From NCBI RefSeq assembly GCF_030408755.1, contig NZ_CP047209.1, positions 1,550,001 to 1,614,000 on the forward strand: a stretch of DNA of 64,000 bases. Reading direction: 5' to 3'. The notes below the pieces were generated by a model. It did no database searches. It was not told the origin of the DNA and was given only the letters and a program-made list of their open reading frames with translations. A program made the position numbers and the translations under genes. This document shows positions 1-35,567 of the stretch, piece after piece. This DNA is from Corynebacterium felinum. GTDB taxonomy: Bacteria > Actinomycetota > Actinomycetes > Mycobacteriales > Mycobacteriaceae. Position 1 is the first letter of the stretch; each line of letters starts with the position of its first letter.

Positions 1-156
1 GGCGCTACCCTTCTGCAGGGATACACCGGCCTGATCTACGGCGGCCCAGAGTGGATTCGCGATATTCACCTCGGAATCGCCGCTCAACTGCGCGCCCATG
101 GTTTCAGCAATATTAGCCAAGCCATAGGTTGCGGTTTGAAATGGACACTCGACTAA
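1..156 (+). CDS. pyrD: Dihydroorotate dehydrogenase (quinone), C-terminal fragment
   Basis: Reading frame 1 is open from the window edge to a TAA at 154-156 and gives 51 residues. The stretch GATLLQGYTGLIYGGPEW followed by a run ending in ...LRAHGF matches the C-terminal end of class 2 dihydroorotate dehydrogenases, where the G-x-x-L-(V/L)-Q-x-Y-T motif binds the FMN phosphate. The enzyme oxidises dihydroorotate to orotate in pyrimidine synthesis at the inner face of the membrane. The N-terminal part lies outside the window. A strong bidirectional terminator follows at 192-231. The identification rests on a short piece but the motif is characteristic. Confidence 0.85.
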   Translation, partial: GATLLQGYTGLIYGGPEWIRDIHLGIAAQLRAHGFSNISQAIGCGLKWTLD

Positions 157-189
157 CATCGAACACCCTTTTTCACTGAAGGTAAAAGA

Positions 190-233
190 AAAAAGGTGGC
201 ATCTTCGTAGTAAAACAAAGATGCCACCTTTCA
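190..233. terminator. Bidirectional terminator between pyrD and a leftward operon
   Basis: A 14-bp perfect stem is formed by 192-205 and 218-231, flanked by A-rich DNA on the left and T residues on the right, so it can stop transcription from both sides. It serves pyrD from the left and the converging membrane-protein operon from the right. Confidence 0.85.
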
Positions 234-253
234 TTGTTCCCAACGCAAGGAAC

Positions 254-643
254 CTAGCCCTTAGGGATCATGGCGCGACGAATAGCAAGACTGCAGGCAA
301 ACGCCAAGAGCGCATAGGCCGGAAGCCAGTACTGATCCCACACCATAAGCACAGGCTGTGGGATAAAACGACCAATAACTACCAAAACCAACGCAATACC
401 AAGTGCAACCACCTGGGCCATGCTGGATTTTTGGTTACGGGTCATCGTGGCAAATCCACCTAAAATGGCACCCGCCACCACGATCAGAAGAAAACGAGGA
501 GTCACTGGAAAAGGGCTCATCCAGCCGTGGGTAATCACTTCAAAAGCGGTGAAAATTGCCAGCACAATCGCCACAGCCATCAAAGCACCACCAATACGGA
601 TTGGTGCAGGAATGCTCACTTCAGCAGTGGGCTTTTTAGTCAT
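254..643 (-). CDS. Small integral membrane protein, unknown function
   Basis: Predicted 129 residues from the ATG at 643 (MTKKPTAEV...). Four hydrophobic segments are visible, around residues 16-34, 48-63, 76-92 and 104-121, separated by short loops, with a basic C-terminus. It looks like the small four-helix membrane proteins found in many corynebacteria; I do not recognise a named family. The ATG overlaps the last 8 bases of the upstream PEBP gene, so it is probably translationally coupled and is the last gene of the ABC-ABC-PEBP-membrane protein operon. An in-frame ATG at 676 lies well inside the PEBP gene and is less likely. Confidence 0.6.
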   Translation of the reverse strand: MTKKPTAEVSIPAPIRIGGALMAVAIVLAIFTAFEVITHGWMSPFPVTPRFLLIVVAGAILGGFATMTRNQKSSMAQVVALGIALVLVVIGRFIPQPVLMVWDQYWLPAYALLAFACSLAIRRAMIPKG

Positions 644-1193
644 TCTCGTACCAACCCCACACGATGGCTCGCCCAAGGGAATGGAAATAGAGATTAAACC
701 CGAGAACAGTTGGAGTAGCGCCGGCAGGAATATCGAGCTTTTCTACATCAACTGCATGTACAGCAAACAAGTAGCGGTGCGGCCCATGCCCCGATGGAGG
801 CTGCGGTCCGTAGTAGCCAGCAATGCCGGAATCACCACGAAGGGTAACAACCTCATCAAGGCCTAAAAGCTTCTGGTCGGCAGCACCCGCGCCTTGAGGA
901 ACTTCGGTCACCGAGACAGGAATGTTGAACGCAGCCCAGTGCCAGAAACCACTAGCGGTTGGGGCATCAGGGTCAAAGCAGGTAATAGCAAGAGATTTGG
1001 TGCCTTCGGGCAGATTATCCCAAGCAAGATGCGGGCTGACATTGGAAGGGGCAACAAACAGCTCACCGATCTTCTCACCATTGCTCAGATCATCGGAGCG
1101 AAGATCAAAGGTGGGCAGATCTTTCAAAGGCGCATAAGGGTCGGGGCCCGGGAAGCGGGGATCATTGGCGTAGGTATTCATGTACTCATTCAT
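636..1193 (-). CDS. PEBP family protein (YbhB/YbcL type)
   Basis: 185 residues with the two hallmark motifs of the phosphatidylethanolamine-binding/Raf-kinase-inhibitor-like family: D-P-D-A-P near residue 75 followed by F-W-H-W, and GYYGPQPPSGHGPHRYLF near residues 126-143, which form the anion-binding pocket. No signal peptide is seen, so it is probably cytosolic. Bacterial members have no firmly assigned role. AAGGA lies 8 nt upstream of the ATG. It begins 3 bases after the ABC exporter gene and overlaps the small membrane protein, so the four genes form one operon. A link with lipid or hydrophobic-ligand transport by the exporter is an inference from position only. Confidence 0.88.
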   Translation of the reverse strand: MNEYMNTYANDPRFPGPDPYAPLKDLPTFDLRSDDLSNGEKIGELFVAPSNVSPHLAWDNLPEGTKSLAITCFDPDAPTASGFWHWAAFNIPVSVTEVPQGAGAADQKLLGLDEVVTLRGDSGIAGYYGPQPPSGHGPHRYLFAVHAVDVEKLDIPAGATPTVLGFNLYFHSLGRAIVWGWYEND

Positions 1194-1196
1194 ACC

Positions 1197-3095
1197 CTAA
1201 TCCTTGTGATGGTTGCCACTCCAACGCGCATAAAGTTGCGCATACCTCTTCCCTAACGCCACGAGCTGATCGTGAGTGCCATCCTCAACAATCCTTCCTT
1301 CCTCCATCACAATGATCCGATCGGCGCTCACTGCCTGATCCAACCGGTGAGCAACCACTAGTGCGGTTTTCCCTTCGGTCACCGCCATCGCGGCCCGTTC
1401 GAGAGTGTGAGCGTGTTCACTGCCTGCCTCACTGGTGGCTTCATCCAAAATAACCACATGAGGTTGTCGCAGCACCACGCGGGCTAGAGCGATCTGCTGG
1501 GCAATCTCTGGGCTCATTTCCTCCTCGCCTGCACCCACTAAAGTGTCTAGCCCATCGGGGAAAGAGCGCTGAAAAGCCTGGGTTTTTGTGCTAAGCCCCA
1601 CTGTTGCTAGAGCTTCAAGCAGTTGTTCATCCGTGGCCGATGGGGCAGCCCACTGTAAGTCTTGGCGCAATGTGCCAGAAAAGACATGCACTTCTTGGCT
1701 TAACAGTGTGACATTACGGGCAGTCCACGCATCGGAGACTTCTTGAGTGTCCACATCCCCAATGAGGATCTGCCCACCAGTGGGAATATGCAGGCCTGCA
1801 ATCAAGCCAGCGAGGGTTGATTTTCCGGCACCAGAAGCACCAACAAGTGCAGTTTTTGTATGTGCCTGAAGATGCAAATTTAGTGGTGGTATCACTTCCC
1901 CACCACCGGGATAAGTAAAGCGCAGATTGTTCAGCGTGATATCCGCAGGAGCATGCAAATTAGCAGGCTCTGGCTTGTCACTTGCCTGCTGCATTTTCGC
2001 TAAGGACACAGCACGGCCCAGCATGGTCGCTGCGGCCTGGATTTCGCCGGAGAAAAACACCACGTTAAAGATGTGGATTTCGGCACGAACAACCAAAAAG
2101 ATTGCCGAGGCGGCTTGGCCTTCACTCACACTTCCCTGATGCACCAACCACAGCGCAAGAATGATGGTGCCAATAAGCCACGCACCATAGGCGAACTGCC
2201 CACAATACAACAGGCGCACCAAGTAAGGCACACGATCGGCGCTTGCCTGCATCGCAGCCCAACTGTTCTTTTTCATGCGTTCTAAAGCCCAGTCGCCATA
2301 GTGAAACGCCCTTAACGTGGGCAAACCACGCAAAGTATCAAGCAATGTGGAATTGCGTTGTGCTTCAGCCACGCTCATGTGGTTGGACACCTGCGGGAGT
2401 GCACGCAACGTCTTTTTCGTGCTCGGGTATACCAACACCAGCGAGACTAAGAAAACGAGCAAGAACCGGGCGTCGATAAGCACTAAAGCCCCGAGGGTGA
2501 AAGGGAAAAGCAAAACCGTATTAATAATCCTGCTGCCGATCGGGATAAGTACCCGCATAGAATCGTCGACATCATTAGTCATGCGAGTAATCACGTTGCC
2601 GGTGCCCAGCTTCATCACCTCAGGAATCGGTGCACGCAACACCGAATCCAAGCAAGCACGTTTGAGATCCACGCTTAAAGTGCGCAGTTTCAGCCCCACA
2701 AAGTACTCGGAAAGCGCGCGCCCCAACGCATCCACGATCAATGACAAACCGCCGATAGCGATGAGAATCAACGCCGCGTCCATGCCGGTGCCCCCAACAG
2801 GTACCTCAGTGCCGCGCAACGCATCCACAACATGGCCAAAAACCGTGGATTGGAGGACGAAAAAGCTCAAGATCACTGAATGCAAGGCGATGATTCCCAG
2901 CACCCATCTGCGCGACCAGCAATGTGGCAATGTAGTGAAAAAGCGGAACGTCTCACCAAGGCTTTCCGGCGCTAAAGCATCTGAAGCCAACGCGGGCACG
3001 AAAGTGTTTTGGCGCTGGAAAAATCGCTGAAAACAGCGTGTGATCAGAGATTTCTTTTCTGGATCGGCGGTGGAGTTATTTTTTCCAGTTGTCAT
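1197..3095 (-). CDS. ABC exporter half-transporter, Walker A subunit of heterodimer 1
   Basis: 632 residues: an N-terminal type IV ABC exporter membrane domain (about residues 60-350) and an ATPase domain (about 385-625). Walker [10 protein letters not shown] is at 419-427, the Q-loop Gln at 467, Walker B VVILDE at 547-552, and the H-loop His in VVAHRLD at 583. The signature LSGGQ is replaced by MSPEI (527-531), and the D-loop reads SEAGSE in place of SALD. The partner gene immediately upstream (ATGA overlap) has the complementary set of intact motifs, so the two should form a heterodimer with one usable ATP site. AAGGAGG precedes the ATG. The substrate is unknown. The protein resembles the product of 8509-10251. 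Confidence 0.88.
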
Positions 3096-4654
3096 TTCAG
3101 TCCTCCTTGACGTGCTGCACTAGCCCATGTTTGGCGCCCAGAAATAACCACGGTGACACGGTTTTTGCGAAGCTGTGCCGTATTGTGAACAACCTTGTCT
3201 AAGGTCACTGCGTCCAAACCAGTTGTAGGTTCGTCGAGCAAAAGTATCTCTGGGTTGCGGGCAAATGCGCGGGCTAAGGCGATGCGTTGGCGTTGTCCAC
3301 CCGACAGGTTCAATCCGGCCTCGCCAATACTGGCTGAAGGCAGTTCGCCATTAGGGCCGTAGCCACCGAAGCGTTTGACAATATCGTCGCAGGCCGCAGC
3401 ATCGAGGCTGGCGCGAAGATGCGTAAGATCGATATCGCCAAGCGGGTTGATGTTATCTTCCAAGGTGCCTTCAAAGATGCTCACGACGTGCGGTGTGGCC
3501 AATGCGCGCTCGTGTCGGGCGAGTTGTTGGAAAAGGGTGTAGTTTTCGGCGGTGGGTTTCCACACATGCAAGCCCGGAGCAGGGATAGGGATGAGTTCGC
3601 TGGGGTGTTCGTCGAGTTCCTGCTGGGGTTGGATTTTTATGATGCGCTTAGCAGCAGCCATAGCAATGGCCCAGGTGGTACTGAGTGTGCCTAAGGCGTA
3701 TCCAGACCATGTCAACGCAGGCGGCGCGAGTAGTGTGATGCTTAACATTTGGCCGGCACTAATTTCGTTACTGCGGGTCAGGTAAGCTCCAACGCCAATG
3801 ATCAGCACGCTAAACAGTGCAGGTGTTAGTTGGCGTAGGAAATTCAACGTTGCACTTAATTGTACGTCTTTGCGCATCCACTCAAGGGCGTGCTCGCTTT
3901 CTGCATAAAAACGGGCGCGCGTGGGTTCGACTGCCCCGAGTCCTTTGAGTACGCGTGAGCCTTGAGCAACATCGGTTGCGAGTCCGGCAACTTTTGCTTC
4001 TGCTTCTCGACGTCGGGAGCTTACTTTCTCAATCGGTTTCGCACTCCACGCTGCAACAGCTGCGGTCGCTATCATCCCTAGGGGGATAATGAGTGCTACT
4101 TTCCAGCTAATGGAAGCCAAACTGATGGTTGTTCCCACGATATAGGAGAACATCATCACCGGAAAGTTAAATATTTCGCGAATATTTGCTGCAGTATCAG
4201 CATCTGCGTCTACCGTATTGAGGATTGTTCCAGGCGAGTGCTCGCTACGGGGGCTCGATAGTAGCTTTTCGGTGAGATAGACGCGCACATTGTGGGTCAC
4301 GCGGCTGACGCCTACTTCGGAAAATCCATCACTTAAACCTTCGGAATAGATGTGGAAGATAAGAATGCTGAGCAATATCAGCAGCGGGATTACCACAACG
4401 ATCGGATCAGTGGAACCAAAAGCGTGGTCAATGATCCAGCCGATGACAAGAGGGGTGGTAGCGGAAATGGCTGAGCCGATGCCGAGGATGATCACTTGGA
4501 GTATCACGGCTGAGCGGTAGGCGAAAAGGAGGTTCCGAATGAGTGCGGTGGGGCTGCGCCAGCGGTGGGGTTGGACGGCGGTGTCGTTGTGTGGCGGTGT
4601 GGCTGGGGCGAACCAGCTCCACAACTTCGCTCGTTTCGGGGTGTTGAAAAGCAT
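3092..4654 (-). CDS. ABC exporter half-transporter lacking the P-loop, heterodimer 1
   Basis: 520 residues: a six-helix exporter membrane domain (about 40-335) and a shortened ATPase domain. LSGGQ (450-454), Walker B ILLLDE (470-475) and D-loop TGLD (478-481) are perfect. Between the membrane domain and the Q-loop there are only about 45 residues, with no Walker A; the Q-loop region reads [11 protein letters not shown] with His where Gln is expected, and the H-loop His is absent (VVISGRQTW), with the chain ending soon after. The frame is continuous, and the paralogue at 10399-12060 has the same gap, so this is not an assembly error. First gene of the operon; its stop overlaps the next start as ATGA. 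It probably supplies only the signature and D-loop to its partner. Confidence 0.85.
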
Positions 4655-4824
4655 ATCAATAACCTTACTTTTAATTGTTCGATAGATGATGCGGAATTGG
4701 AACAGAAGTTAAGAATTTCAAAGACTTGCCCAAAAATGGCCTTTGAGCTGGCGATTTGTCATAGTCAAAGCTCTCTAATATAGTTTTGGGAGTGCCCAGC
4801 CAACAGGCTGAAAACAAAACCCAA

Positions 4825-4910
4825 GCCCGGGTGGCGGAATGGCAGACGCGCTAGCTTGAGGTGCTAGTGTCCTACTAACGGACGTGGGGGTTCAAGTCCC
4901 CCCTCGGGCA
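4825..4910 (+). tRNA. tRNA-Leu (anticodon GAG)
   Basis: An 86-nt cloverleaf is visible. The acceptor stem pairs 4825-4831 with 4903-4909 with discriminator A at 4910; the anticodon stem CTAGC/GCTAG encloses loop TTGAGGT with anticodon GAG at 4858-4860; there is a long variable arm (GTCC/GGAC), typical of class II leucine tRNAs; the T arm is GGGGG-TTCAAGT-CCCCC. CCA is not encoded. A terminator follows. Confidence 0.97.
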
Positions 4911-4944
4911 CTCGATACACTTGTTGTAGTGTTGAGTTTTGAAT

Positions 4945-4988
4945 AAAGGCTGTGAAATTTTCTTCGGAGAGTTTCACAGCCTTTTTTC
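4945..4988 (+). terminator. Intrinsic terminator after tRNA-Leu
   Basis: A stem of at least 10 bp, GGCTGTGAAA (4948-4957) with TTTCACAGCC (4972-4981), is followed by a run of T. It ends the tRNA transcript. Confidence 0.88.
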
Positions 4989-5091
4989 CCATGCCACTGC
5001 TACTTTTGGGGCTTTGGGGCTGAAGGGACAAAAAGTGTGGACCAAAAGTGAAGCTTCACAAAGAAACGATTGCGAGGCTGACTTCTTGGGA

Positions 5092-5187
5092 AGTACTCTC
5101 CTAGGGTTAAAATCCCATCACGGTTGAAGTACTGTGGCGTGTGCTGATGGTAGCCGAAAGTAGATCAACGCCGTGATGGTTTTTTAC
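5092..5187 (+). terminator. Long hairpin with T-run; possible small-RNA end
   Basis: CCATCACGGTTGA (5115-5127) pairs with TCAA-CG-CCGTGATGG (5165-5179) around a loop of about 37 nt, and a T run follows at 5180-5185 on the plus strand. No coding gene ends upstream on this strand (the tRNA already has its own terminator), so it may end a short untranslated RNA. It may also help stop the leftward lipoprotein gene, whose end is at 5201. The heptamer AAGTACT occurs twice (5092 and 5127). Confidence 0.45.
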
Positions 5188-5200
5188 AAGCTGCGAGTTG

Positions 5201-6700
5201 TTAACGCACGGCCGGCTTTTTGGCTTCGACTTCCTTTGATCCGGACTCGGCCGAAATGGTGTAGGTCTCCCCTGCCTTCAGCTCGGGGCTGCTGAAGAAG
5301 ATCTGACGCACCTCGACCTCCACCAGTTCTTCGAGAATCACTGTGTCTTTAGCATCACGGATCGAAATGGCCTCACCGATGCCAATATCCATCGGTTCTC
5401 GAATCCATGGCGCACCTAAGGTCACGCCGATCGGTTCATGATCCTTACCCGCGGCAAAGACCGTGCCACCAGTGATTTCAAAAGATCCATCCACATCAAA
5501 GAACCCATTATTGCCCGGATCTTGGACGAAAATTCGCACCTTGCCGTTGGTGATTCGCAACTCGCCATTGGAATCGATGCCGTCGGTGCCAGCATTGATA
5601 GACAGGTCGCCACCGGTAATGGTGATCGAAGGCTTGAAGTAGTTGGGGCGATCTTCCGGCAAGTTGCCAGAGGACGCATTGATGCCATCATCGGTTGCGG
5701 TGATATTGATCGTGCCACCTTCAATGAGTACGGTCAGTGCCTCAATACCCTCCAAGGCGCGCACGATATTGACTTCGCCGCCAGTAATCACAGCGGTCGT
5801 GGTGGCGTTGATGCCGTTATATTCCGCATCAATGGTGACGATCCCGCCGAGAATAAAGGCGTCGCCTTCGCATTCAATACCCTTGCGGCCAGCCTTCACA
5901 TTGAAGTCTGCCTTCAAGATCACCAGTTCTTCACCGTTGACTGCATTGTTTCCGGCGGAAATTTCATAGGCGCCGCTTTCCATAATCACATCCGAGCCAG
6001 CTTTGAGTCCGTCTTTTTGTACCGCAATTTTTAACACACTGCGGGCAGAATCAATGACACCATGTGCAGGATCGGTTGTATCCGTTGCGGTAATGCCGTG
6101 AGCGCCGGCATCAATAGAAATGTGGGCATCGCGGACATAGACGGAGTCGTAGGCCTCAATGCCGTGTCCGTCGGCAGAAATATAGAGTGCACCACCAAGG
6201 ACTGCGACATTGTTTGCGGAAATGCCCGTGCTGTTACTGGTAATACGTAATTGGCCGGTGCCAACGAACGTGAGATTGACGTTCGAGCGCACCACACCAC
6301 TGCTGTTATCGCCCTCGGTTACCACTACAACGTTGCGGGCGGATTGCACAGTGATCGATGGAAGTGTGGCATTGGCCAACCGAATGACAACCAGTTCCTC
6401 GGGGGCATTAATGGTTAAAGCGGGCAAGTCGCCGCTGAGGGTATAGCTACCCCCGCGGGTAATGTCTTGCTCAGGGTTGAATTCAGCGGAGGCGACTGCG
6501 GTCCATTGGGACTCGTGTACGCCTTCAAAGGTTTCGTTTTCTTCCCTGGTGACGGAGATCAAACGCTGATAGTTCGTTTGGGTCAAAGTATCGGCGGTTT
6601 GGGGTACTGGGGTCCGCGGTTCTTCGGTTGGAAGATTGTGGGTACAAGCAGTAAGGACTCCTGCGGTTAAAATGGCGAGGGCTAAACGCACAGATCGCAT
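5201..6700 (-). CDS. Lipoprotein with beta-helix carbohydrate-binding domain (DUF4353-like)
   Basis: 499 residues. A lipoprotein signal peptide is clear: MRSVRLALAILTAGVLTAC, with a lipobox ending in Cys19. From about residue 90 to 440 the chain is a ladder of short rungs with recurring patterns such as I-x-A-x-x-x-G-I-x-A, D-G-I-N-A and I-T-G-G-x-(V/L)-x-I, typical of right-handed parallel beta-helices of the DUF4353/Cthe_2159 family, whose characterised member binds acidic polysaccharide and calcium. Acidic and glycine-rich turns are frequent. AAGGAG lies 12 nt before the ATG. It stands alone between the tRNA and the divergent SDR gene. A role on the outer face of the membrane in binding envelope glycans is inferred. 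Confidence 0.8.
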   Translation of the reverse strand: MRSVRLALAILTAGVLTACTHNLPTEEPRTPVPQTADTLTQTNYQRLISVTREENETFEGVHESQWTAVASAEFNPEQDITRGGSYTLSGDLPALTINAPEELVVIRLANATLPSITVQSARNVVVVTEGDNSSGVVRSNVNLTFVGTGQLRITSNSTGISANNVAVLGGALYISADGHGIEAYDSVYVRDAHISIDAGAHGITATDTTDPAHGVIDSARSVLKIAVQKDGLKAGSDVIMESGAYEISAGNNAVNGEELVILKADFNVKAGRKGIECEGDAFILGGIVTIDAEYNGINATTTAVITGGEVNIVRALEGIEALTVLIEGGTINITATDDGINASSGNLPEDRPNYFKPSITITGGDLSINAGTDGIDSNGELRITNGKVRIFVQDPGNNGFFDVDGSFEITGGTVFAAGKDHEPIGVTLGAPWIREPMDIGIGEAISIRDAKDTVILEELVEVEVRQIFFSSPELKAGETYTISAESGSKEVEAKKPAVR

Positions 6701-6909
6701 ATGAGGAGCTTCTCCTTAAGCTTGTCGTGATGTGTTGTTGATAACGCAATCGTTGTCTTTAAGAAATAGCTTATTAGAGTATTCCACCGCTCGAAAAATG
6801 GCAAAACCCGTATAAATTCCCCGTCGCATGTCGGAGCCTAGTTTGCACACTGTCTACTTTTGGTTTCGATAGCTTTAAGAAGGCTTAACTTAAGGAGAAA
6901 GTCGCTGCT

Positions 6910-8481
6910 GTGAACAAAGACCTTGAAATACCTGAAGAAGATTTTCGCATCACCTTGAGGGTGCTTGAACAGGTAGGTGACTTCCCTAGCGATCACCTGC
7001 AATCGAGGCAACTTCAACAAGCGGTAGCCAAGCTTTTCAAAGCGGTGAAAAAACAGCGTCGACAAGCAGCGAAGCAACGCCGCCAAACAAACGACGCCTC
7101 CGTGCTTGCCCGCACCGCAACCGCGAACCCGCAGCGCATCGATGATGAGACTGCTGGGCTTGTGCCTACCCCCGCCGCACTCACGCCGCCGACGAGCGCG
7201 CACCTTGATTCTGGGCAGTCGGCTCTGGGGAATACTCACGCGCGCATCGCTGCTGAGGTGGCGACACCGCACGGCTGGGCCGGAAAACTGTACCGGGCGA
7301 ACAAGTGCTATATCTGCAAGCAACCTTATACTTTGGTCGATTCCTTCCACCACCAGCTGTGTCCTGACTGTGCTGCAGACAATCGTGCCCGGCGTGAGGC
7401 GCGGGTCGACTTGTCGGGTCGTCGTGCGTTGCTTACTGGTGGACGGGCGAAGATCGGTATGTATATTGCGCTGAAGCTGTTGCGCGATGGCGCGGATGTG
7501 ACAATCACGACGCGTTTTCCGAAAGACGCGGTGCGTCGCTTTTGTGCAGTGGCTGACTCAGATGCGTGGCTTGATCGACTGCACGTTGTGGGTATTGATT
7601 TGCGTGATCCGAATCAGGTTGAAGATCTAGCAGAGCGGATGTCGGCCCAACCGCTCGATATTTTGATTAATAATGCTGCCCAGACTGTTCGGCGTTTGCC
7701 TGGCGCCTACAGTGGGCTTATCGACGCCGAAACTGCGCCACTTACTGCTGCGGAAAGCAGCGTTGATTGTGTGAGTTTGGGGGCAACATCAACCCTGCAC
7801 CCCGCAGTGTTGGTCGGTGGCGATGCCCAGGCGTTGGGCGAGGCTGCGCCAAGACCAGTTGTGGATGCGGATGCGGTTTCTGCACAGATTCATGCCGCGC
7901 GCTTAGCAGCGCTGGCGCTCACGGGTGGTTCGGCGGCGCTGGAGCGTGTTGCTGATGGCACGGCAGTGGATGCTGGTGGGTTGATTCCTGATCAGGTGGA
8001 GCATAATTCGTGGGTGGCAACCATTGGTGAGGTTGATCCGCTTGAGCTGTTAGAAGTTCAACTGTGTAATGCGACAGCGCCATTTATTTTGCTCAATCGC
8101 CTGCGCCCAGCTTTGGAAGCATCGAAGGCGCGGCGTAAGTATGTGGTGAATGTTTCGGCTATGGAAGGGGTTTTTCACCGCGGGTATAAAGGGCCTGGGC
8201 ATCCGCATACAAACATGGCGAAAGCGGCGCTGAATATGCTCACCCGCACCAGCTCCGCGGAACTGTTTGAGCATGGAATTTTAATGACCTCAGTAGATAC
8301 TGGGTGGATTACTGATGAGCGCCCCCACACGCTTAAACAGCAGATGGCAAGCCAAGGTTTTCACGCACCTTTAGATCTCGTCGATGGTGCAGCACGAGTG
8401 TATGACCCGATTGTGCAAGGGGAAAACGGCGTTGATCTCTACGGCTGCTTCCTCAAAGACTTCCGCCCTCACCCGTGGTAA
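6910..8481 (+). CDS. Zinc-ribbon SDR-family oxidoreductase with altered active site
   Basis: 523 residues from a GTG start with AAGGAG 12 nt upstream. An N-terminal helical, basic region (1-70) and a low-complexity linker lead to a zinc ribbon, C133-x2-C136 and C151-x2-C154. A Rossmann fold follows: TGGRAKIG at 176-183 (cofactor binding) and NNAAQ at 254-258. About 115 residues of extra sequence come before the NVSAMEG segment with the SDR serine. The expected YxxxK is replaced by T-N-M-A-K in HPHTNMAKAALNM, with a lengthened Ser-Lys spacing. The fold is clear but the catalytic Tyr is not where it should be, so the reaction is unknown. Divergent from the lipoprotein gene. Confidence 0.75.
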   Translation: MNKDLEIPEEDFRITLRVLEQVGDFPSDHLQSRQLQQAVAKLFKAVKKQRRQAAKQRRQTNDASVLARTATANPQRIDDETAGLVPTPAALTPPTSAHLDSGQSALGNTHARIAAEVATPHGWAGKLYRANKCYICKQPYTLVDSFHHQLCPDCAADNRARREARVDLSGRRALLTGGRAKIGMYIALKLLRDGADVTITTRFPKDAVRRFCAVADSDAWLDRLHVVGIDLRDPNQVEDLAERMSAQPLDILINNAAQTVRRLPGAYSGLIDAETAPLTAAESSVDCVSLGATSTLHPAVLVGGDAQALGEAAPRPVVDADAVSAQIHAARLAALALTGGSAALERVADGTAVDAGGLIPDQVEHNSWVATIGEVDPLELLEVQLCNATAPFILLNRLRPALEASKARRKYVVNVSAMEGVFHRGYKGPGHPHTNMAKAALNMLTRTSSAELFEHGILMTSVDTGWITDERPHTLKQQMASQGFHAPLDLVDGAARVYDPIVQGENGVDLYGCFLKDFRPHPW

Positions 8482-8508
8482 ACCTTCTACTCCCCTAGCT
8501 TTAGTGCG

Positions 8509-10251
8509 TTATGCATCCCAGTGGGCATACAGCTTCGCATAGGCACCGCCTGCGTTTATGAGTTCATCATGGGTGCCGTCTTCAATGATGGCCCCATTGT
8601 CCATCAAAATAATCCTATCGGCACCACGAGCCTGATCCAGACGATGTGCGACAATTAGGCTCGTGCGCCCACGAGTGGCCAACGTTGCCGCATGCTCTAA
8701 TGTCTTAGCGTGCTCGCTGCCGGCTTCGCTGGTGGATTCATCCATAATGAGCACAGGCGGATTCCGTAGCAGGATCCGCGCTAGCGAGATTTGCTGCTCA
8801 ACCTCGGGGGAAAGCTCATCAGCTCCAGCCCCAATTGGCGTATCTAATCCTTGCGGGAACCATCGTGAAAACACCGTGCCACTTAAACCAACAGCACTTA
8901 AAGCCTCCAAGAGCTGTTCATCATCAGGGTTTTCTGCTGCTAGATGCAAATCCTCCCGCAATGTGCCAGAGAACAAATGCACTTGTTGGCTAATAAGTGC
9001 CACATGCCGCGCAATCCATGAATCAGGGGCCAAGCGGGTATCCACATCACCGATATAAATCGTTCCCGCCGTCGGTTGCTGCAGCCCAGCAATCAGCGCC
9101 GCCAACGTCGACTTGCCCGCACCTGATGCCCCCACCAGGGCAGTCGTACTCCCTGCAGCCAACCGCAACGAAAGATCTTCAATAATTGCAGCACCCTGCG
9201 GGTAGGAATAACTCACGTTACTTACGATCACCTCAGGTGACGAAAGATCAGCAGGCTCACACGTGGTATTCTCCTTCCCCAACAAAGCAAGAGAAACCGC
9301 GCGACCTAGACTCGTCACCGCATTTTGAATATGCGCCGAAAAAGTCAACACATTAAACAAATGAATCTCTAACCGCGCCACCAAAATCACTGCAGCACCA
9401 GCCTGCCCCACACTCAACACCTGCTCATGCGCCAAAAACGTGGCAAGAACAAGCGTTGCACACAGCAACAGCCCGTACGCAGTCGTACCAAACAGCAACA
9501 ACCGGCTAAAAATAGGGATACGACCAGCCATTGCCTGCACCGCAGCCCAATTCTTCTGCTCCACACGCGCCAAGGCCCACCGGTGACGACCAAGCGCACG
9601 GATTGTTCCCAACCCCTTAATCGTGTCCAACAATGTATTATTCCGCGTAGCTTCCTTTTCCGACATCGCATTCGTCGCCGGCGGAAAATCCCGCACAATT
9701 ATCTTCACCAACGGGTACTCAACCACAACGACCACGCACACAATAACGATGAACGACCAATGCACAAAAGCCAATGCCACAGTCGTAAACGGGAACATAA
9801 AGGCCGTAATCACCAGACGTGCGCCAATCTCCTGAAACGCACGAGAAAAACGATCCACATCCTTAGTCAATCGCGAAATCACATTGCCAGTCCCCAACTG
9901 GACTACCTGCGGAATCGGCGCCGCTAACACCGAACGAACACAGGCCTGACGCAAGAAAATCGCAAGCTCAGCAATCTTACTTACCAACAAATACTGACCA
10001 ATATTCCGCGCCACATTCTCACACAGCAACGCCACCACAATCACCGCAAGGACGCTAAAAAATATCCCCCGATCATCCCTATAATCAACCAACCTCCCCA
10101 ACAACGACGAAGTCAGCACCATCACGGTCAACAACACACCAAAACTCAACCCCATCCCCACCCACCAGCGGCGCGCCGGGCGGGCCGGAAGAGTGCGAAG
10201 AAATTTTATTGAGGTTTGTAAAGATGCAGGGGTAGATAAATCAGTAGTCAT
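8509..10251 (-). CDS. ABC exporter half-transporter, Walker A subunit of heterodimer 2
   Basis: 580 residues, clearly paralogous to the product of 1197-3095. The membrane domain spans about residues 28-320. The ATPase domain has Walker [10 protein letters not shown] (374-382), Q-loop Gln422, Walker B LIMDE (501-505) and H-loop His536 (IVAHRLD). The signature is LSPEV (480-484) instead of LSGGQ and the D-loop reads SEAGSE, the same two defects as in the paralogue. Its partner is encoded 147 bp upstream on the same strand. The ribosome site before the ATG is weak. It converges with the SDR gene, leaving only 27 bp. Substrate unknown. Confidence 0.88.
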   Translation of the reverse strand: MTTDLSTPASLQTSIKFLRTLPARPARRWWVGMGLSFGVLLTVMVLTSSLLGRLVDYRDDRGIFFSVLAVIVVALLCENVARNIGQYLLVSKIAELAIFLRQACVRSVLAAPIPQVVQLGTGNVISRLTKDVDRFSRAFQEIGARLVITAFMFPFTTVALAFVHWSFIVIVCVVVVVEYPLVKIIVRDFPPATNAMSEKEATRNNTLLDTIKGLGTIRALGRHRWALARVEQKNWAAVQAMAGRIPIFSRLLLFGTTAYGLLLCATLVLATFLAHEQVLSVGQAGAAVILVARLEIHLFNVLTFSAHIQNAVTSLGRAVSLALLGKENTTCEPADLSSPEVIVSNVSYSYPQGAAIIEDLSLRLAAGSTTALVGASGAGKSTLAALIAGLQQPTAGTIYIGDVDTRLAPDSWIARHVALISQQVHLFSGTLREDLHLAAENPDDEQLLEALSAVGLSGTVFSRWFPQGLDTPIGAGADELSPEVEQQISLARILLRNPPVLIMDESTSEAGSEHAKTLEHAATLATRGRTSLIVAHRLDQARGADRIILMDNGAIIEDGTHDELINAGGAYAKLYAHWDA

Positions 10252-10398
10252 TGTGTGTCACTATTTCCAATGGCGCAGTAGTAGGTTGGGCAAATGAGAA
10301 ACTATCGGCATGAAAGCGCTGGGGGATAAACAATAAGCTCGTCGGTGGGCATTTCTCAGCGGACGACGGATGAGATTCAGCACAAGTTTGTGACATCG

Positions 10399-12060
10399 CT
10401 ACGTGTTAGGTGTGTCAGCGGAAGACACGAGTAGGAAATCCTCATCAGTGAACACCACGTCAGCCGCACTGATCCACGCCTGGGACGTTGTAATCACAAT
10501 CGTGCGCTTAGCCTTACGCAACTGGACAACTGCCGCAGCTACCGAACTTAAGGTCACCGCGTCCAAACCTGTGGTGGGTTCGTCAAGGATGAGGAAATTT
10601 GGATCCATATTCAACACCCTGGCCAACGCTATGCGTTGACGTTGTCCACCGGAAAGGTTCAAACCACTCTCTCCAATGGGTGCAGTAGGAAGCTGGCCCA
10701 TAGGCCCATATCCACCCAAACGCTGCACAATATCGCCACAAGCTGCCGCATCCAAGCCAATGCGGGATTGGGCATCAAACTCCACGTTATCGGCAAGCGT
10801 ACCTTCAAATACCGCAACAACATGAGGCGGATACACCGCTTCACACTCCACCACATACCGTTGCGCCAACTCTTGCGCCTTGACTCGGGCAGACTCAGTA
10901 CCTAAAGCCCACACCTCTAAACCAGCGCGATCCGGCTGAAATACCGAAGAACTGTGCTCAAATGCTTGATCTACATCTGGTTCACTGTGCTCAGCTTCCT
11001 CCAAATCGCTTACGAGAGCATTCAGCCGGGCAGCCGACGCCGTCGCCCTGCCCCAATATTCTGCAATCATTCCCAAAGAAATACCCATCACCTGAAGCGA
11101 CAGCGGAACAAGCAACGTAACAGTGACCATGTCGCCGGGCGTGATGTCGCCGTCGAAAAGCAAGAAGCCCGCATAGCCAATAATCACAGTGATGAAAACA
11201 GTAGGGACCGACTGCCTAGCAAAATCGCACCATGCCATCACCCGTGCATTCGCACGGGTCGCCTCCAACGTTGTGCGTGCAGCCTCATCAAAACGCTGTT
11301 GACTGCGCCCAGTAGATCCCATCCCCTTCAATACCCGCACACCCTGAGCAAAGTCCGTTGCCAACGACACAGCACGAGACTCAGCAACACGACGCGCACT
11401 ATTAGCCCTATTAATCGGCCCCACAGTTGCACGCGCAACAAGCGCAGTCGAAATTCCACCTAACGGAACCAGCACGGCCAACAACGGTGAAATCGGTGCA
11501 AGCACTATCGACGTACCGATCAAATAACCCGCCATCGTGACAGGGAAATTCAAAATATGCTTGAGCTCACCCACAATCGACGTGTCATCATCAACTGTAT
11601 TCAGAACCTCACCTGGCGTTTTCGTACGCGGTGCGCGCGCCATCAACCTATGAGACAACTCCATCCGCAACCCGTGCGTACTTCGTGCAGCCACAACATC
11701 GGTCAAACCGTCGGCCGTAGCCTCCATAAACCAAGAAAACAGCAGTAACGCAACAACCGCAAGCACTGGAAATACCAAAGCCGAAACAGGCTGATGCCCA
11801 ATCACTGAATCAACAGTCAAGCCCACGACACGATTTGTAACTGCAGAGGCCAACGATCCCGCTAGAGTTGCTAGAATCAACGATGCCGAAATGCCAGGAA
11901 AAGAACGAAGAACGCGCAAACACAACGCCGCTGCATGATCTCCAAAGCCCAAGGCACGCGGATCATGCGTCGGCGGATCCGATGGCGCAGCCCACGCCCA
12001 CGTGCGCATTCTTTGATATCTCATAAAGTATGAGACTACCGCTCTCCAATGCCGAAACAA
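10399..12060 (-). CDS. ABC exporter half-transporter lacking the P-loop, heterodimer 2
   Basis: 553 residues from the ATG at 12060; a shorter form starting at MRTWAWAAP (12009) would align better with the N-terminus of the paralogue at 3092-4654. Six hydrophobic helices lie in about 55-350. The ATPase remnant has a perfect LSGGQ (469-473), Walker B FLILDE and TGLD, but no Walker A, a PPHVVAVFEGTL motif with His at the Q-loop position, and no H-loop His (IVITTSQAW). The match to the first pair's partner in exactly these defects shows the arrangement is maintained. Unlike pair 1, this gene is separated from its partner by 147 bp. Confidence 0.85.
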   Translation of the reverse strand: MFRHWRAVVSYFMRYQRMRTWAWAAPSDPPTHDPRALGFGDHAAALCLRVLRSFPGISASLILATLAGSLASAVTNRVVGLTVDSVIGHQPVSALVFPVLAVVALLLFSWFMEATADGLTDVVAARSTHGLRMELSHRLMARAPRTKTPGEVLNTVDDDTSIVGELKHILNFPVTMAGYLIGTSIVLAPISPLLAVLVPLGGISTALVARATVGPINRANSARRVAESRAVSLATDFAQGVRVLKGMGSTGRSQQRFDEAARTTLEATRANARVMAWCDFARQSVPTVFITVIIGYAGFLLFDGDITPGDMVTVTLLVPLSLQVMGISLGMIAEYWGRATASAARLNALVSDLEEAEHSEPDVDQAFEHSSSVFQPDRAGLEVWALGTESARVKAQELAQRYVVECEAVYPPHVVAVFEGTLADNVEFDAQSRIGLDAAACGDIVQRLGGYGPMGQLPTAPIGESGLNLSGGQRQRIALARVLNMDPNFLILDEPTTGLDAVTLSSVAAAVVQLRKAKRTIVITTSQAWISAADVVFTDEDFLLVSSADTPNT

Positions 12061-12226
12061 AAGTGCCGTAGCTCACCTAATCAGCCCCTGTGTGTGTAAA
12101 ACAACCAGCACACTAGGTGCTCAAGACTCACAAACGCCACCACACCCCCTTGCGCACCGCACTGGCGACACAAAGAACTATGGTGGCGTGCACACACGTC
12201 AGGACAAAGCGCTGACGTGCGCAATT

Positions 12227-12697
12227 TTAGTGATGCTGCTCGTTTGGATCGTTATCAGCATCTTCCTTCGTGGCGTGAACAGTACCAGGAAGGTGATCAG
12301 GGGCAGCGTAAATGGAGTACAGCTTCACAGGCTCATCACCAGCATTGAGCACATTATGCCACTTGCCAGCAGGGATGAACACTGCCCAGTCGTCCTCCAC
12401 AACCTGATCAATATCAAGCTCAGACTCGCTTGCACCAATCATCACGCGAGCCTTACCGGACTCCAAGCGCAAGAATTGGTCATGATCATCGTGAATTTCC
12501 GCACCGATCTCGCCACCGGCAGGAATGTCCATCACCGTCATCTGAAGGAACTGGCCAGTCCACACCGTATCACGGAAATTAGTGTTGGACAGGGTCTTTT
12601 CCTCAATATCAAGGACGTATGGATGTGGGCCAAAATCAGCCATGAGTGTGGCCATGCCTTTCTTTTCGACAATAGAACTCATACCCATCGTACTCAT
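12227..12697 (-). CDS. Cupin-domain protein
   Basis: About 156 residues if started at the ATG at 12697 (MSTMGMSS...); ATGs at 12688 and 12682 are also possible, and longer forms would run into meaB. A single cupin fold is indicated by G-x-E-I-G-A-E-I-H-D-D-H-D-Q-F and the later P-A-G-K-W-H-N-V-L-N, which supply the metal-binding His and Glu residues. This subfamily (conserved ATLxADFGPxPYVxDIE opening) is found in many bacteria without a defined reaction. It is the last gene of the mutA-mutB-meaB group, 40 bp after meaB, but nothing shows a functional link to methylmalonyl-CoA. Confidence 0.8.
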   Translation of the reverse strand: MSTMGMSSIVEKKGMATLMADFGPHPYVLDIEEKTLSNTNFRDTVWTGQFLQMTVMDIPAGGEIGAEIHDDHDQFLRLESGKARVMIGASESELDIDQVVEDDWAVFIPAGKWHNVLNAGDEPVKLYSIYAAPDHLPGTVHATKEDADNDPNEQHH

Positions 12698-12737
12698 GGA
12701 TCGACCAACGCGCAGATAAAAACACAACCAACCCGAA

Positions 12738-13841
12738 CTAAACCTGCTCTGCCTTATCAAACGCCCGCAACACCCGCTCCGCAGCCAACGTCGGTGTGAT
12801 CTGGGCATGGCGCAATTGCTTTTCGACGAGCGAACGCATCGCCATCACATCAGGATCAGTATTCAGCCGCTGCAAAATCGTCTCATGAACCATCGACCAC
12901 ATCCACTTCACCTGCTGCTCACGGCGATTACTCTCAAAGAAACCAGAAGCAACCATCGCCTCATGATGATCCACAACTAACTGCCAGAACTCATCAGTAC
13001 CCTGCGACTCCACAGCAGACAACGTAATCGTCGGCGGATGCCACACAGCATTTTCTGGCCTCACCAAACGCAAAGCAGCCGCCAACTCACGCGCAGCACG
13101 CTTAGCATTCTTCACATTCGGCCCATCCGCCTTATTGATCGCCACCACATCAGCCATCTCCAGAACACCCTTCTTAATGCCCTGAAGCTGATCACCAGCA
13201 CCTGCCAAAGCCAAGAACGTAAAACAATCAACCATCTGGGAAACAGCGACCTCGGATTGTCCCACCCCCACAGTCTCGACCAAAATGACGTCGAAACCAG
13301 CAGCCTCAAACACCACCATCGACTCACGCGTCGCCTTCGCAACACCGCCCAACGTCCCCGCCGACGGTGACGGACGAATAAACGCATTATCCTTGCGCGC
13401 TAATTTCGCCATACGAGTCTTATCCCCCAAAATTGAACCCCTCGTTTTCGTCGACGACGGGTCGATAGCTAAAACGGCCACCTTATGGCCCTCACCAATG
13501 AGCTTCATGCCCAAGGACTCAATAAACGTCGACTTGCCCACCCCAGGCACACCCGTAATACCGACTCGCAATGCATCGCCACTAAACGGCAGCAAACGAA
13601 CCAACAACTCCTGCGCCAACACACGATGTGCGGGAGCAGTGGACTCCAACAGCGTGATAGCCCGCGAAATCATTGTTCGATTACACGCCCGCACGCCGTC
13701 GAAAAGCTCATCAACATTAATCCTGCGCCGCGCCTTCACAACAATCTCTGGGGCTACCGCAGTTTGTTCCCCCAAATCCGTACCAGCGGTCGTAGTCAAC
13801 GACCCCAAATGATGCTCAAGATACTCGTTATCAACAGGCAT
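12738..13841 (-). CDS. meaB: Methylmalonyl-CoA mutase-associated GTPase MeaB
   Basis: 367 residues of the ArgK/MeaB G3E GTPase family. The P-loop GVPGVGKST is at about 97-105, followed by D-P-S-S-x-x-T-R-G-S-I-L-G-D-K-T-R-M, the family's switch region, then E-T-V-G-V-G-Q-S-E and N-K-A-D-G for guanine recognition. MeaB protects methylmalonyl-CoA mutase, loading adenosylcobalamin and ejecting inactive cofactor at the cost of GTP. Its place directly after mutB on the same strand fits this role. The 160 bp between them hold two hairpins that may lower its expression relative to the mutase. Confidence 0.95.
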   Translation of the reverse strand: MPVDNEYLEHHLGSLTTTAGTDLGEQTAVAPEIVVKARRRINVDELFDGVRACNRTMISRAITLLESTAPAHRVLAQELLVRLLPFSGDALRVGITGVPGVGKSTFIESLGMKLIGEGHKVAVLAIDPSSTKTRGSILGDKTRMAKLARKDNAFIRPSPSAGTLGGVAKATRESMVVFEAAGFDVILVETVGVGQSEVAVSQMVDCFTFLALAGAGDQLQGIKKGVLEMADVVAINKADGPNVKNAKRAARELAAALRLVRPENAVWHPPTITLSAVESQGTDEFWQLVVDHHEAMVASGFFESNRREQQVKWMWSMVHETILQRLNTDPDVMAMRSLVEKQLRHAQITPTLAAERVLRAFDKAEQV

Positions 13842-34088: not shown

Positions 34089-35567
34089 TTACACCAATAC
34101 AGAGTATTGACTGTGCTTATAGTTCCAATACGCCACGGCTGATACGAGGTTCTGGTCATTCCAATACGCATTAGTAAGCGTGGTTGTAAGCACCCACGAG
34201 CCAGCGATACGCCAGTAGGACTTACTGGTATTAGCCCACTCATAGGCCTTTTGTTTATCCACACCCAAGCGGCAGAGGTTCCGTATCCGCGTTCGGATAC
34301 GTTTCCACTGCTTCCATACGCACATCCGCAGTCGACGACGAAGATGCTCATCCAGCCGGTTAAGAAACACCTTCGCATCCGCCAACGCGAAATAACCAAG
34401 CCATCCACGCAAATATTTGTTTAACCGGTCAATGCGATACTCCATCGACACCGACCACGATCTTGCCGTAAGCTCTTTCACTCGGGCTAAAACCCTCACC
34501 TTCGTGGCCTTAGTAAGTCGAAACCGATACTGATCACCACGAACCAGATAGAACCCATAGCCTAAAAGCTCCGCCTTAATCGCATGACAAATAGTGGACT
34601 TCTCCTGATTAACCCGCAGCTTTAACTTCCCCTCCAGAAACTTCCCAGACTGGGCAAGCGCACGCTGCGCAGCACGCTTGGAACGAACAAAGACCCGAAT
34701 ATCATCAGCATAACGAACAAACTTCGTGCCCTTAGATGCAAGATAATGATCAAAATCATCCAACATGATATTGCTCAACAACGGCGATAACGGTGACCCC
34801 TGCGGAGTCCCTGCATCACTACACCGAACAACACCATCAGCCATAATCCCAGCGTTTAAATACGCCCGAATAAGCTTCAACACGCGCTTATCGTCAACCT
34901 TACGAGCCACCCTCGACATCAACATGTCGTGATTAACCGTGTCGAAATACTTCGACAAATCAACCTCAACAACCCACACATACCCCTCGTTAAGAAACCC
35001 ACGTGCGGTCTTTAACGCCATATGTGCGCTACGTTGAGGCCTGAAACCAAAAGACACAGGCACAAACCCCACATCAAAGATAGGCGTAAGTACCTGCGCG
35101 ATCGCCTGACAAATCACACGATCAACAACAGTCGGAACACCAAGCATACGCCAACCACCCGAAGGCTTTGGGATCATCACCTCACGAACCGGCAACGGCT
35201 TATACGTTCCCGCGTCAAGACGCTCACGAATGCCACTCCAGTGTTCGCGCAGATAAACGTCAATATCCTCAACACCTACCCCGTCCACACCAGCAGCACC
35301 CTTATTCGTCTTAACCCGCTCTAATGCAGTGCGGAGATTGCCACCTGAAAAGACTTGATTCCACAGATCAGCACCCGCACCAGTTGACACTTCCCCTACA
35401 TCGGCAGACACACAACTAGGCACACCATGGCTATCGTCGGGATTCACCCTATCCTCCCCATAATGCCCACACACACGTGGTTGGCAGCTTTCACCGTTAT
35501 GCATAACTACAATCCAGGTTCCATACTCAACAATGTAAAGTTCAGTCCTTCCTCGCTCACCCACCAT
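34089..35567 (-). CDS. ltrA: Group II intron reverse transcriptase/maturase
   Basis: Up to 492 residues; the true start is uncertain because no ribosome site is clear (ATGs at 35567 and 35504 are possible). Reverse transcriptase blocks are in order: N-K-G-A-A-G-V-D-G (about 87-95), G-V-P-T-V-V-D-R, F-G-F-R-P-x-R-S-A-H, G-T-P-Q-G-S-P-L-S-P-L-L-S-N-I and the polymerase motif Y-A-D-D (about 288-291). A thumb/maturase X region and a W-R-I-A-G-S-W tail follow. No DNA endonuclease domain is seen, so mobility would rely on nicked or replicating DNA. The stop codon lies 3 bases before domain V. Confidence 0.95.
   Translation of the reverse strand: MVGERGRTELYIVEYGTWIVVMHNGESCQPRVCGHYGEDRVNPDDSHGVPSCVSADVGEVSTGAGADLWNQVFSGGNLRTALERVKTNKGAAGVDGVGVEDIDVYLREHWSGIRERLDAGTYKPLPVREVMIPKPSGGWRMLGVPTVVDRVICQAIAQVLTPIFDVGFVPVSFGFRPQRSAHMALKTARGFLNEGYVWVVEVDLSKYFDTVNHDMLMSRVARKVDDKRVLKLIRAYLNAGIMADGVVRCSDAGTPQGSPLSPLLSNIMLDDFDHYLASKGTKFVRYADDIRVFVRSKRAAQRALAQSGKFLEGKLKLRVNQEKSTICHAIKAELLGYGFYLVRGDQYRFRLTKATKVRVLARVKELTARSWSVSMEYRIDRLNKYLRGWLGYFALADAKVFLNRLDEHLRRRLRMCVWKQWKRIRTRIRNLCRLGVDKQKAYEWANTSKSYWRIAGSWVLTTTLTNAYWNDQNLVSAVAYWNYKHSQYSVLV

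Follow-up and report, generated by a model that had tools for sequence, protein, structure and literature searches.

Two exporter pairs of Corynebacterium felinum and an actinobacterial ABC exporter family that probably works with a single ATP site

A 64,000-nucleotide stretch of the Corynebacterium felinum genome (NCBI RefSeq assembly GCF_030408755.1, contig NZ_CP047209.1, positions 1,550,001 to 1,614,000 of the forward strand; hereafter, the window) encodes two pairs of ATP-binding cassette (ABC) half-exporters in which one subunit (B1, B2) lacks the P-loop (Walker A motif) and its partner (A1, A2) lacks the canonical LSGGQ signature. Judging from their motifs, B1-A1 and B2-A2 are likely to form heterodimeric exporters of type IV (ABCB-like) that have only one ATP site each. 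More broadly, we put at about 0.75 the probability that these pairs belong to an ancient actinobacterial ABC exporter family with exactly one ATP site, TetAB of the Corynebacterium striatum plasmid pTP10 included, in which one nucleotide-binding domain (NBD) would be a permanent nucleotide-free lid, the partner would have given up its signature, one ATP would be spent per cycle, and the closed dimer would be nucleotide-free on one side.

Results

Division of the ATP-site motifs in the two exporter pairs

B1 (3092..4654; all coordinates are positions in the window and refer to the minus strand unless marked otherwise) is a TetA-like half-exporter of 520 amino acids (aa) that consists of a transmembrane domain and an NBD remnant. 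It comes first and overlaps by 4 bp with its TetB-like partner A1 (1197..3095; 632 aa). Both reading frames had been named in an initial annotation of this DNA and both exist, on the minus strand, which had been left unstated. The motifs described there for A1 were also found: the protein has an intact Walker A (GASGAGKS, residues 419-426; 1818..1841, from a six-frame scan), Q-loop (Gln467), Walker B (Asp551-Glu552) and H-loop (His583), but its signature, canonically LSGGQ, is the degenerate MSPEI (residues 527-531; 1503..1517, derived from residue numbers) and its D-loop reads SEAGSE. B1 likewise has the reported composition: no G-x4-GK[ST] motif is present, His389 (3488..3490) occupies the position of the Q-loop Gln and Gly506 that of the H-loop His, and the signature LSGGQ (residues 450-454; 3293..3307) and the D-loop TGLD (with Asp481; 3212..3214) are retained. 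The further claim that every element of the second site is lost holds for the P-loop, the Q-loop Gln and the H-loop His but not for Walker B, of which B1 keeps Asp474-Glu475. Thus, as had been proposed, the Walker motifs of A and the signature and D-loop of B make up one complete composite site, and the other is stripped of ATP-holding residues on both sides; this division is fixed throughout the family (see below).

The second pair had been overlooked and shows the same division of motifs. B2 (10399..12060; 553 aa) is a P-loop-less half-exporter with about 40% identity to B1, and A2 (8509..10251; 580 aa) carries Walker A GASGAGKS (9109..9132, six-frame scan), the signature LSPEV and the D-loop SEAGSE. 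A six-frame scan of window positions 1-13000 found Walker A motifs only in A1 and A2, and therefore no P-loop encoded in a different frame or by an adjacent gene of that region. The trait is not unique to A1-B1; apart from this second copy, it occurs in relatives of the TetAB family and is spread over actinobacteria. A sequencing or frameshift artefact was ruled out, given that the same state recurs in B2, in TetA of pTP10 and in nearly all related open reading frames (ORFs; 143 of 144).

The six-helix exporter transmembrane domain that characterizes type IV half-transporters is present, and in B1 it matches PF00664 over nearly the whole model (79.6 bits). Only positions 84-137 of Pfam ABC_tran (PF00005, 137 positions) were matched by B1. 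A Walker A motif, expected in each half, is found in A1 and A2 and is absent from B1 and B2. By descent and fold, B counts as half of an exporter, though not as a nucleotide-binding half. In the AlphaFold2 model of B1, the place expected for the P-loop is predicted to hold a strand, a three-residue turn and a helix, followed by a further strand (residues 361-387; 3494..3574, derived from residue numbers), and the strand, turn and helix were seen again in a second model. The closest structural matches were mostly exporters. By sequence, no solved structure of a family member was recognized, the best 60 of 525 and of 533 matches being ordinary exporters.

Kinship with pTP10 TetAB

The closest named relative considered here is TetA of pTP10 (NC_004939.1), which shares 41% identity with B1 over 98% of its length and resembles it in lacking a P-loop, keeping LSGGQ and GLD, and carrying His at the Q-loop position. 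Its partner TetB, like A1 and A2, keeps Walker A and has a degenerate signature (IPPEV); at 528 aa it is shorter than A1 (632 aa) and A2 (580 aa), apparently (by eye) between the membrane domain and Walker A. Gene order is also shared: tetA and tetB are followed by a PEBP-family gene, annotated as YbhB/YbcL on pTP10, which in the window occurs only after A1. Using the NCBIfam models for the two proteins, B1 scored 416 bits over residues 10-514 and B2 331 bits over nearly the whole model with NF000506 (tet_ABC_AB_A; cut-off 1025), and A1 and A2 scored 577 and 439 bits, respectively, with NF000103 (tet_ABC_AB_B; cut-off 999). Because these scores fall far below the cut-offs, neither pair can be named TetAB or assumed to export tetracycline. 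A review describes the relatives on pTP10 as an efflux pump (PMC8304765). One annotation source labels pTP10 TetA (locus L031, 3010-6138) as an MFS pump, though it is an ABC half-exporter.

Conservation of the division across the family

A profile search for further P-loop-less exporter subunits bore out the initial annotation well beyond the window: among retrieved ORFs of at least 380 aa that score at least 340 bits with the B profiles, Walker A is absent from 143 of 144. The lone exception, at L186, is a fused protein of 1324 aa whose two cassettes score 301 and 234, and no ORF falls between 306 and 340 bits. As a control, exporter-like ORFs of loci L184-L261, which come mostly from unrelated bacteria, contain Walker A in all but one of 84 cases, and that one (L194) is a member of the family. 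The proteins used for all other B motif counts were selected partly for having no Walker A, hence the separate test of that feature on the 144-ORF set. These other counts are alignment-based and refer to 137 distinct B proteins (146 genes before duplicate removal), comprising ORFs of at least 380 aa and at least 340 bits without Walker A from loci L001-L261, together with B1, B2 and pTP10 TetA; L072-L101 (30 loci), shorter ORFs (e.g., L102) and the later loci L262-L324 are excluded.

The signature core SGGQ and the D-loop Asp are present in all 137 B proteins. The Q-loop Gln and the H-loop His occur in none (the former position is His in 123), and GK[ST] was found in none within the 150 residues preceding the signature. 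Their own Walker B Asp is kept by 51 of the 137 and the catalytic Glu by 41. Partners were counted as 114 distinct proteins, selected by Walker A and a complete NBD, with 31 loci dropped (29 cut at the locus end, two without a usable ORF); when the choice was repeated irrespective of Walker A, the motif was present in 141 of 141 loci. The Q-loop Gln, Walker B Asp, catalytic Glu and H-loop His are each found in 114/114 partners, canonical LSGGQ in 0/114 and the D-loop Asp in 19/114. An A gene is present in 141 of the 143 B loci, and L131 (G344) contains the sole B that has no Walker A-bearing partner within about 2.4 kb downstream. Taken together, the motifs suggest that those parts of B that would serve the ATP held by A are kept without exception and those for an ATP of its own are gone or going, with A as the mirror image.

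Comparison of the B Q-loop with the A D-loop in 104 pairs gave His/Gly in 83, non-His/Asp in 12, His/Asp in seven and non-His/Gly in two. We do not claim coevolution of the Q-loop His with the D-loop change, because this pattern largely follows deep clades.

Origin, trimming and selection

Phylogenies were built from membrane domains only, so that the lost NBD motifs play no part in them. In a tree of 119 sequences, 56 B proteins (Shimodaira-Hasegawa-like approximate likelihood ratio test [SH-aLRT] support of 100), 29 A proteins (99) and 34 other exporters (83) form separate groups. The B clade was recovered with 100/99 support in a more careful tree of 67 sequences, and all 65 B sequences form one clade (93) in a tree of 135 sequences that includes weaker matches. 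The origin of B is single and old. A possible P-loop-bearing sister of the B clade is L308, although its placement is unsure (SH-aLRT 97, on a very long branch in a quick tree). The subunit found at L308 and L323 (G567) contains Walker A GPVGSGKT, Gly in place of the catalytic Glu and no H-loop His, and its neighbour has Walker A and LSTGE as its signature.

Measured from a conserved Arg located where the membrane domain ends, the signature lies at a median distance of 165 residues in ordinary exporters and 164 in A. In B this distance is 152-154 in most long forms and 148 in the basal group, compared with 117 and 102 in the TetA-like and second Corynebacterium groups, respectively; the Corynebacterium B proteins are thus some 50-60 residues shorter than ordinary exporters between membrane domain and signature. 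The initial description of a site that was physically removed therefore fits the Corynebacterium forms only. Relatives elsewhere have an NBD of nearly full length with the P-loop residues substituted; in L119, for example, the stretch preceding the P-loop is kept and other residues occupy its place (by eye). Because relatives outside Corynebacterium keep this near-full length, removal looks like a second step, and we infer that P-loop chemistry was lost first and the domain was trimmed later. Consistent with this order, trimmed B proteins are nested inside untrimmed ones in the careful tree. The two Corynebacterium groups stand apart in the 119-sequence tree, a quick one, and together (84/94) in the careful one, which would require two trimming changes because L110 stands apart.

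The NBD remnant is under purifying selection. Among pairs with a synonymous divergence (dS) below 2 in the membrane part, the ratio of nonsynonymous to synonymous divergence (dN/dS) is 0.03-0.34 in the remnant, one pair having no synonymous change, and 0.05-0.47 in the membrane part, except for the near-identical pair L022/L027 (1.03).

Distribution and gene neighbourhoods

Of 201 genomes of the same genus, 135 contain one or more matches to the P-loop-less profile with an E-value of 1e-98 or better, and the retrieved Corynebacterium B proteins fall into two groups with about 28% mutual identity. Among loci chosen for high scores, B lacks Walker A in 40 of 40 from the same GTDB family (including three from the genus itself) and in 30 of 30 from other families of the class; the same applies to all six loci outside the class. 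Across the phylum, 198 genomes were sampled, and 13 of them reached 1e-98. Named members include Saccharothrix luteola (L182) and Kibdelosporangium philippinense (L183), both with pairs of the long form, and Streptomyces sp. TRM68367. The search beyond the phylum consisted of a pattern scan of genome contigs and of plasmid searches. The former was swamped by the general LSGGQRQR pattern, with members recognized at L182, L183 and L194 among 80 loci; the latter gave candidate relatives in Nonomuraea, Embleya, Pseudonocardia, Tsukamurella and Arthrobacter.

Some distant relatives lie close to biosynthetic genes. The exporter pairs of L270 and L275 are within 5 kb of nonribosomal peptide synthetase (NRPS) genes, and L275 additionally contains a gene for an ornithine/lysine N-monooxygenase, resembling hydroxamate siderophore clusters in this respect. 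At L131, where only B was seen, an NRPS-like reading frame lies immediately upstream of it (by eye). These three neighbourhoods suggest export of siderophores or peptides.

In the window, the gene next after A1 encodes a PEBP-family protein (YbhB/YbcL-like, PF01161; 636..1193), and a hydrophobic protein of at most 140 aa without a Pfam match is encoded at 254-676. Both genes may belong to the exporter operon. A similar couple of hydrophobic-protein and PEBP genes was seen by eye downstream of the exporter genes in L272 and L273. The two exporter pairs are separated by a gene for a carbohydrate-binding protein with a Cthe_2159 domain (PF14262; 5201-6700); between it and B1 lies a tRNA-Leu gene (anticodon GAG; 4825-4911, plus strand), the sole tRNA detected by ARAGORN in the window. 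A group II intron reverse transcriptase/maturase (PF00078, PF08388) is encoded at 34089-35567.

Discussion

The two pairs share their fold and the possession of one consensus site with TM287/288, TAP, BmrCD, TmrAB, PatAB and MsRv1273c/72c. The polarity, with good Walker motifs and a bad signature in one subunit and the reverse in the other, is also that of TM287/288, TAP, BmrCD and TmrAB, and the degenerate site of TAP, TM287/288 and BmrCD keeps its P-loop and binds ATP. B1 and B2, in contrast, have no P-loop at this site, and ATP binding at the degenerate site of B is unlikely as far as can be judged from its residues. The contrast, which had been drawn in the initial annotation, holds for the two published systems that were checked, both of which have the same polarity: in MsRv1273c/72c the degenerate subunit keeps its P-loop, and ATP clamped at the degenerate site is described as glue (PMC12038006), whereas B has lost P-loop, Q-loop Gln and H-loop His; in PatAB both NBDs are described as ATP-binding, with one ATP hydrolysed (PMC9541285).

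Two eukaryotic transporters offer further comparisons. In yeast Pdr5, an ABCG-type transporter, the published report lists changes from Lys to Cys in Walker A, Glu to Asn in Walker B and His to Tyr in the H-loop, with LNVEQ as the signature (PMC7756269), so that, as in the family described here, all motifs of one site are altered. However, Pdr5 is a fused transporter of another fold and its changes are substitutions, whereas the Corynebacterium B proteins are also shortened. The NBD of the human ABCB5 beta isoform is described as lacking the Walker A region (PMC3029322); this is one form of one animal gene, unlike a fixed bacterial family with a reciprocally altered partner.

In the mechanism we propose, ATP would be held by the Walker A, Walker B, Q-loop and H-loop of A, closed in by the signature and D-loop of B, and hydrolysed there. 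The opposite site has neither the P-loop, Q-loop Gln and H-loop His of B nor the signature of A, and a normal ATP sandwich would therefore not be expected to form. The NBD of B would act as an ATP-independent lid, its shortened core, in the predicted fold, presenting the signature helix and D-loop to A and relaying motion to the transmembrane domain of B. Each cycle would involve the binding and hydrolysis of one ATP, with protein-protein contact holding the dead side. By kinship, the cargo may be small amphipathic compounds, since the pTP10 relative is described as an exporter of tetracyclines and beta-lactams and NRPS genes occur within 5 kb of three distant relatives.

Several observations weigh against this single-site reading. 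B1 keeps the Walker B Asp-Glu, so not every residue of the second site has been stripped. The structural control, a model with five sequences, was of middling confidence (pTM, the predicted template modelling score, of 0.53). Sampling was seeded with full-length profiles of P-loop-less proteins and is biased toward matches of that kind. A search with the membrane domain only gave 30 of 30 loci without Walker A among those provided, but weaker matches of this type (L307-L321; 91-136 bits) contain Walker A in ten of 15 and lack it in five, and one weak match with Walker A outscores some family members; the membrane-domain score thus gives no clean split of P-loop-less from P-loop-bearing subunits. 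The function of pTP10 TetAB is taken here from a review and from general background. Finally, the heterodimeric ABC tetracycline pump TetAB(60), which like TetAB(46) has a similar name but belongs to a different family, has Walker A in both subunits, and deleting either is reported to abolish resistance (PMC5138185). P-loop loss is therefore not tolerated in general, and the P-loop-less family described here must have adapted to it.

The most serious competitor of a single-site exporter, though an unlikely one, is that the remnant of B binds nucleotide in an unorthodox way and both sites are occupied, as the retained Walker B Asp-Glu of B1 and the strand-turn-helix predicted at the P-loop place might suggest. 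In the 137 B proteins, however, GK[ST] is missing from the 150 residues before the signature throughout, no protein has the Q-loop Gln or the H-loop His, 86 have lost the Walker B Asp, and the LSGGQ that would close such a site is found in none of the 114 partners. Slightly less probable is a regulator or channel gated by one ATP rather than an ATP-driven exporter: CFTR and SUR typically have extremely asymmetric NBDs, and no substrate is assigned to the pairs in the window. Against this, a catalytic Glu and an H-loop His, needless in a pure sensor, are invariant in the 114 partners, the best structural matches are mostly exporters, and the review cited above treats the pTP10 proteins as an efflux pump (PMC8304765).

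The complete catalytic side of A could instead be thought to work in a homodimer, with B as a regulatory or scaffold subunit. We regard this as very improbable, since an A-A dimer would have no LSGGQ at all (0/114), all 137 B proteins preserve SGGQ together with the D-loop Asp, and the A gene accompanies B in 141 of 143 loci, overlapping it by 4 bp in B1/A1. Even less credence is given to B being a decaying gene, despite the loss of core motifs, its C-terminal shortening and internal stops in a few of the matches listed: most of the matches listed are open, the signature and D-loop are invariant in a lineage of single and old origin, and dN/dS of the remnant lies well below 1, on which basis B was rejected as a pseudogene. 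It is hardly credible that a different gene or frame provides the P-loop, as both Walker A motifs in the six-frame scan of positions 1-13000 lie in the A genes. An exporter with one ATP site and a nucleotide-free lid accordingly remains the preferred explanation.

The TetAB resistance determinant and degenerate sites in ABC exporters are already known, and searches of the open-licence literature turned up no account of a P-loop-less subunit in a bacterial exporter or of a single-site family. The role of the degenerate site in asymmetric ABC exporters is debated, one proposal being that the bound ATP acts as glue (PMC12038006). Here, evolution has removed the loop that would bind this glue ATP, and the family has persisted and diversified. 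If the complex binds one ATP, the glue ATP would be dispensable, and stoichiometry, asymmetry and NBD opening could be tested without engineered mutants. The graded series from a substituted P-loop to a trimmed NBD marks out how far an NBD can be stripped while presumably still serving as a lid. The present findings also change the understanding and annotation of a named resistance determinant, pTP10 TetAB.

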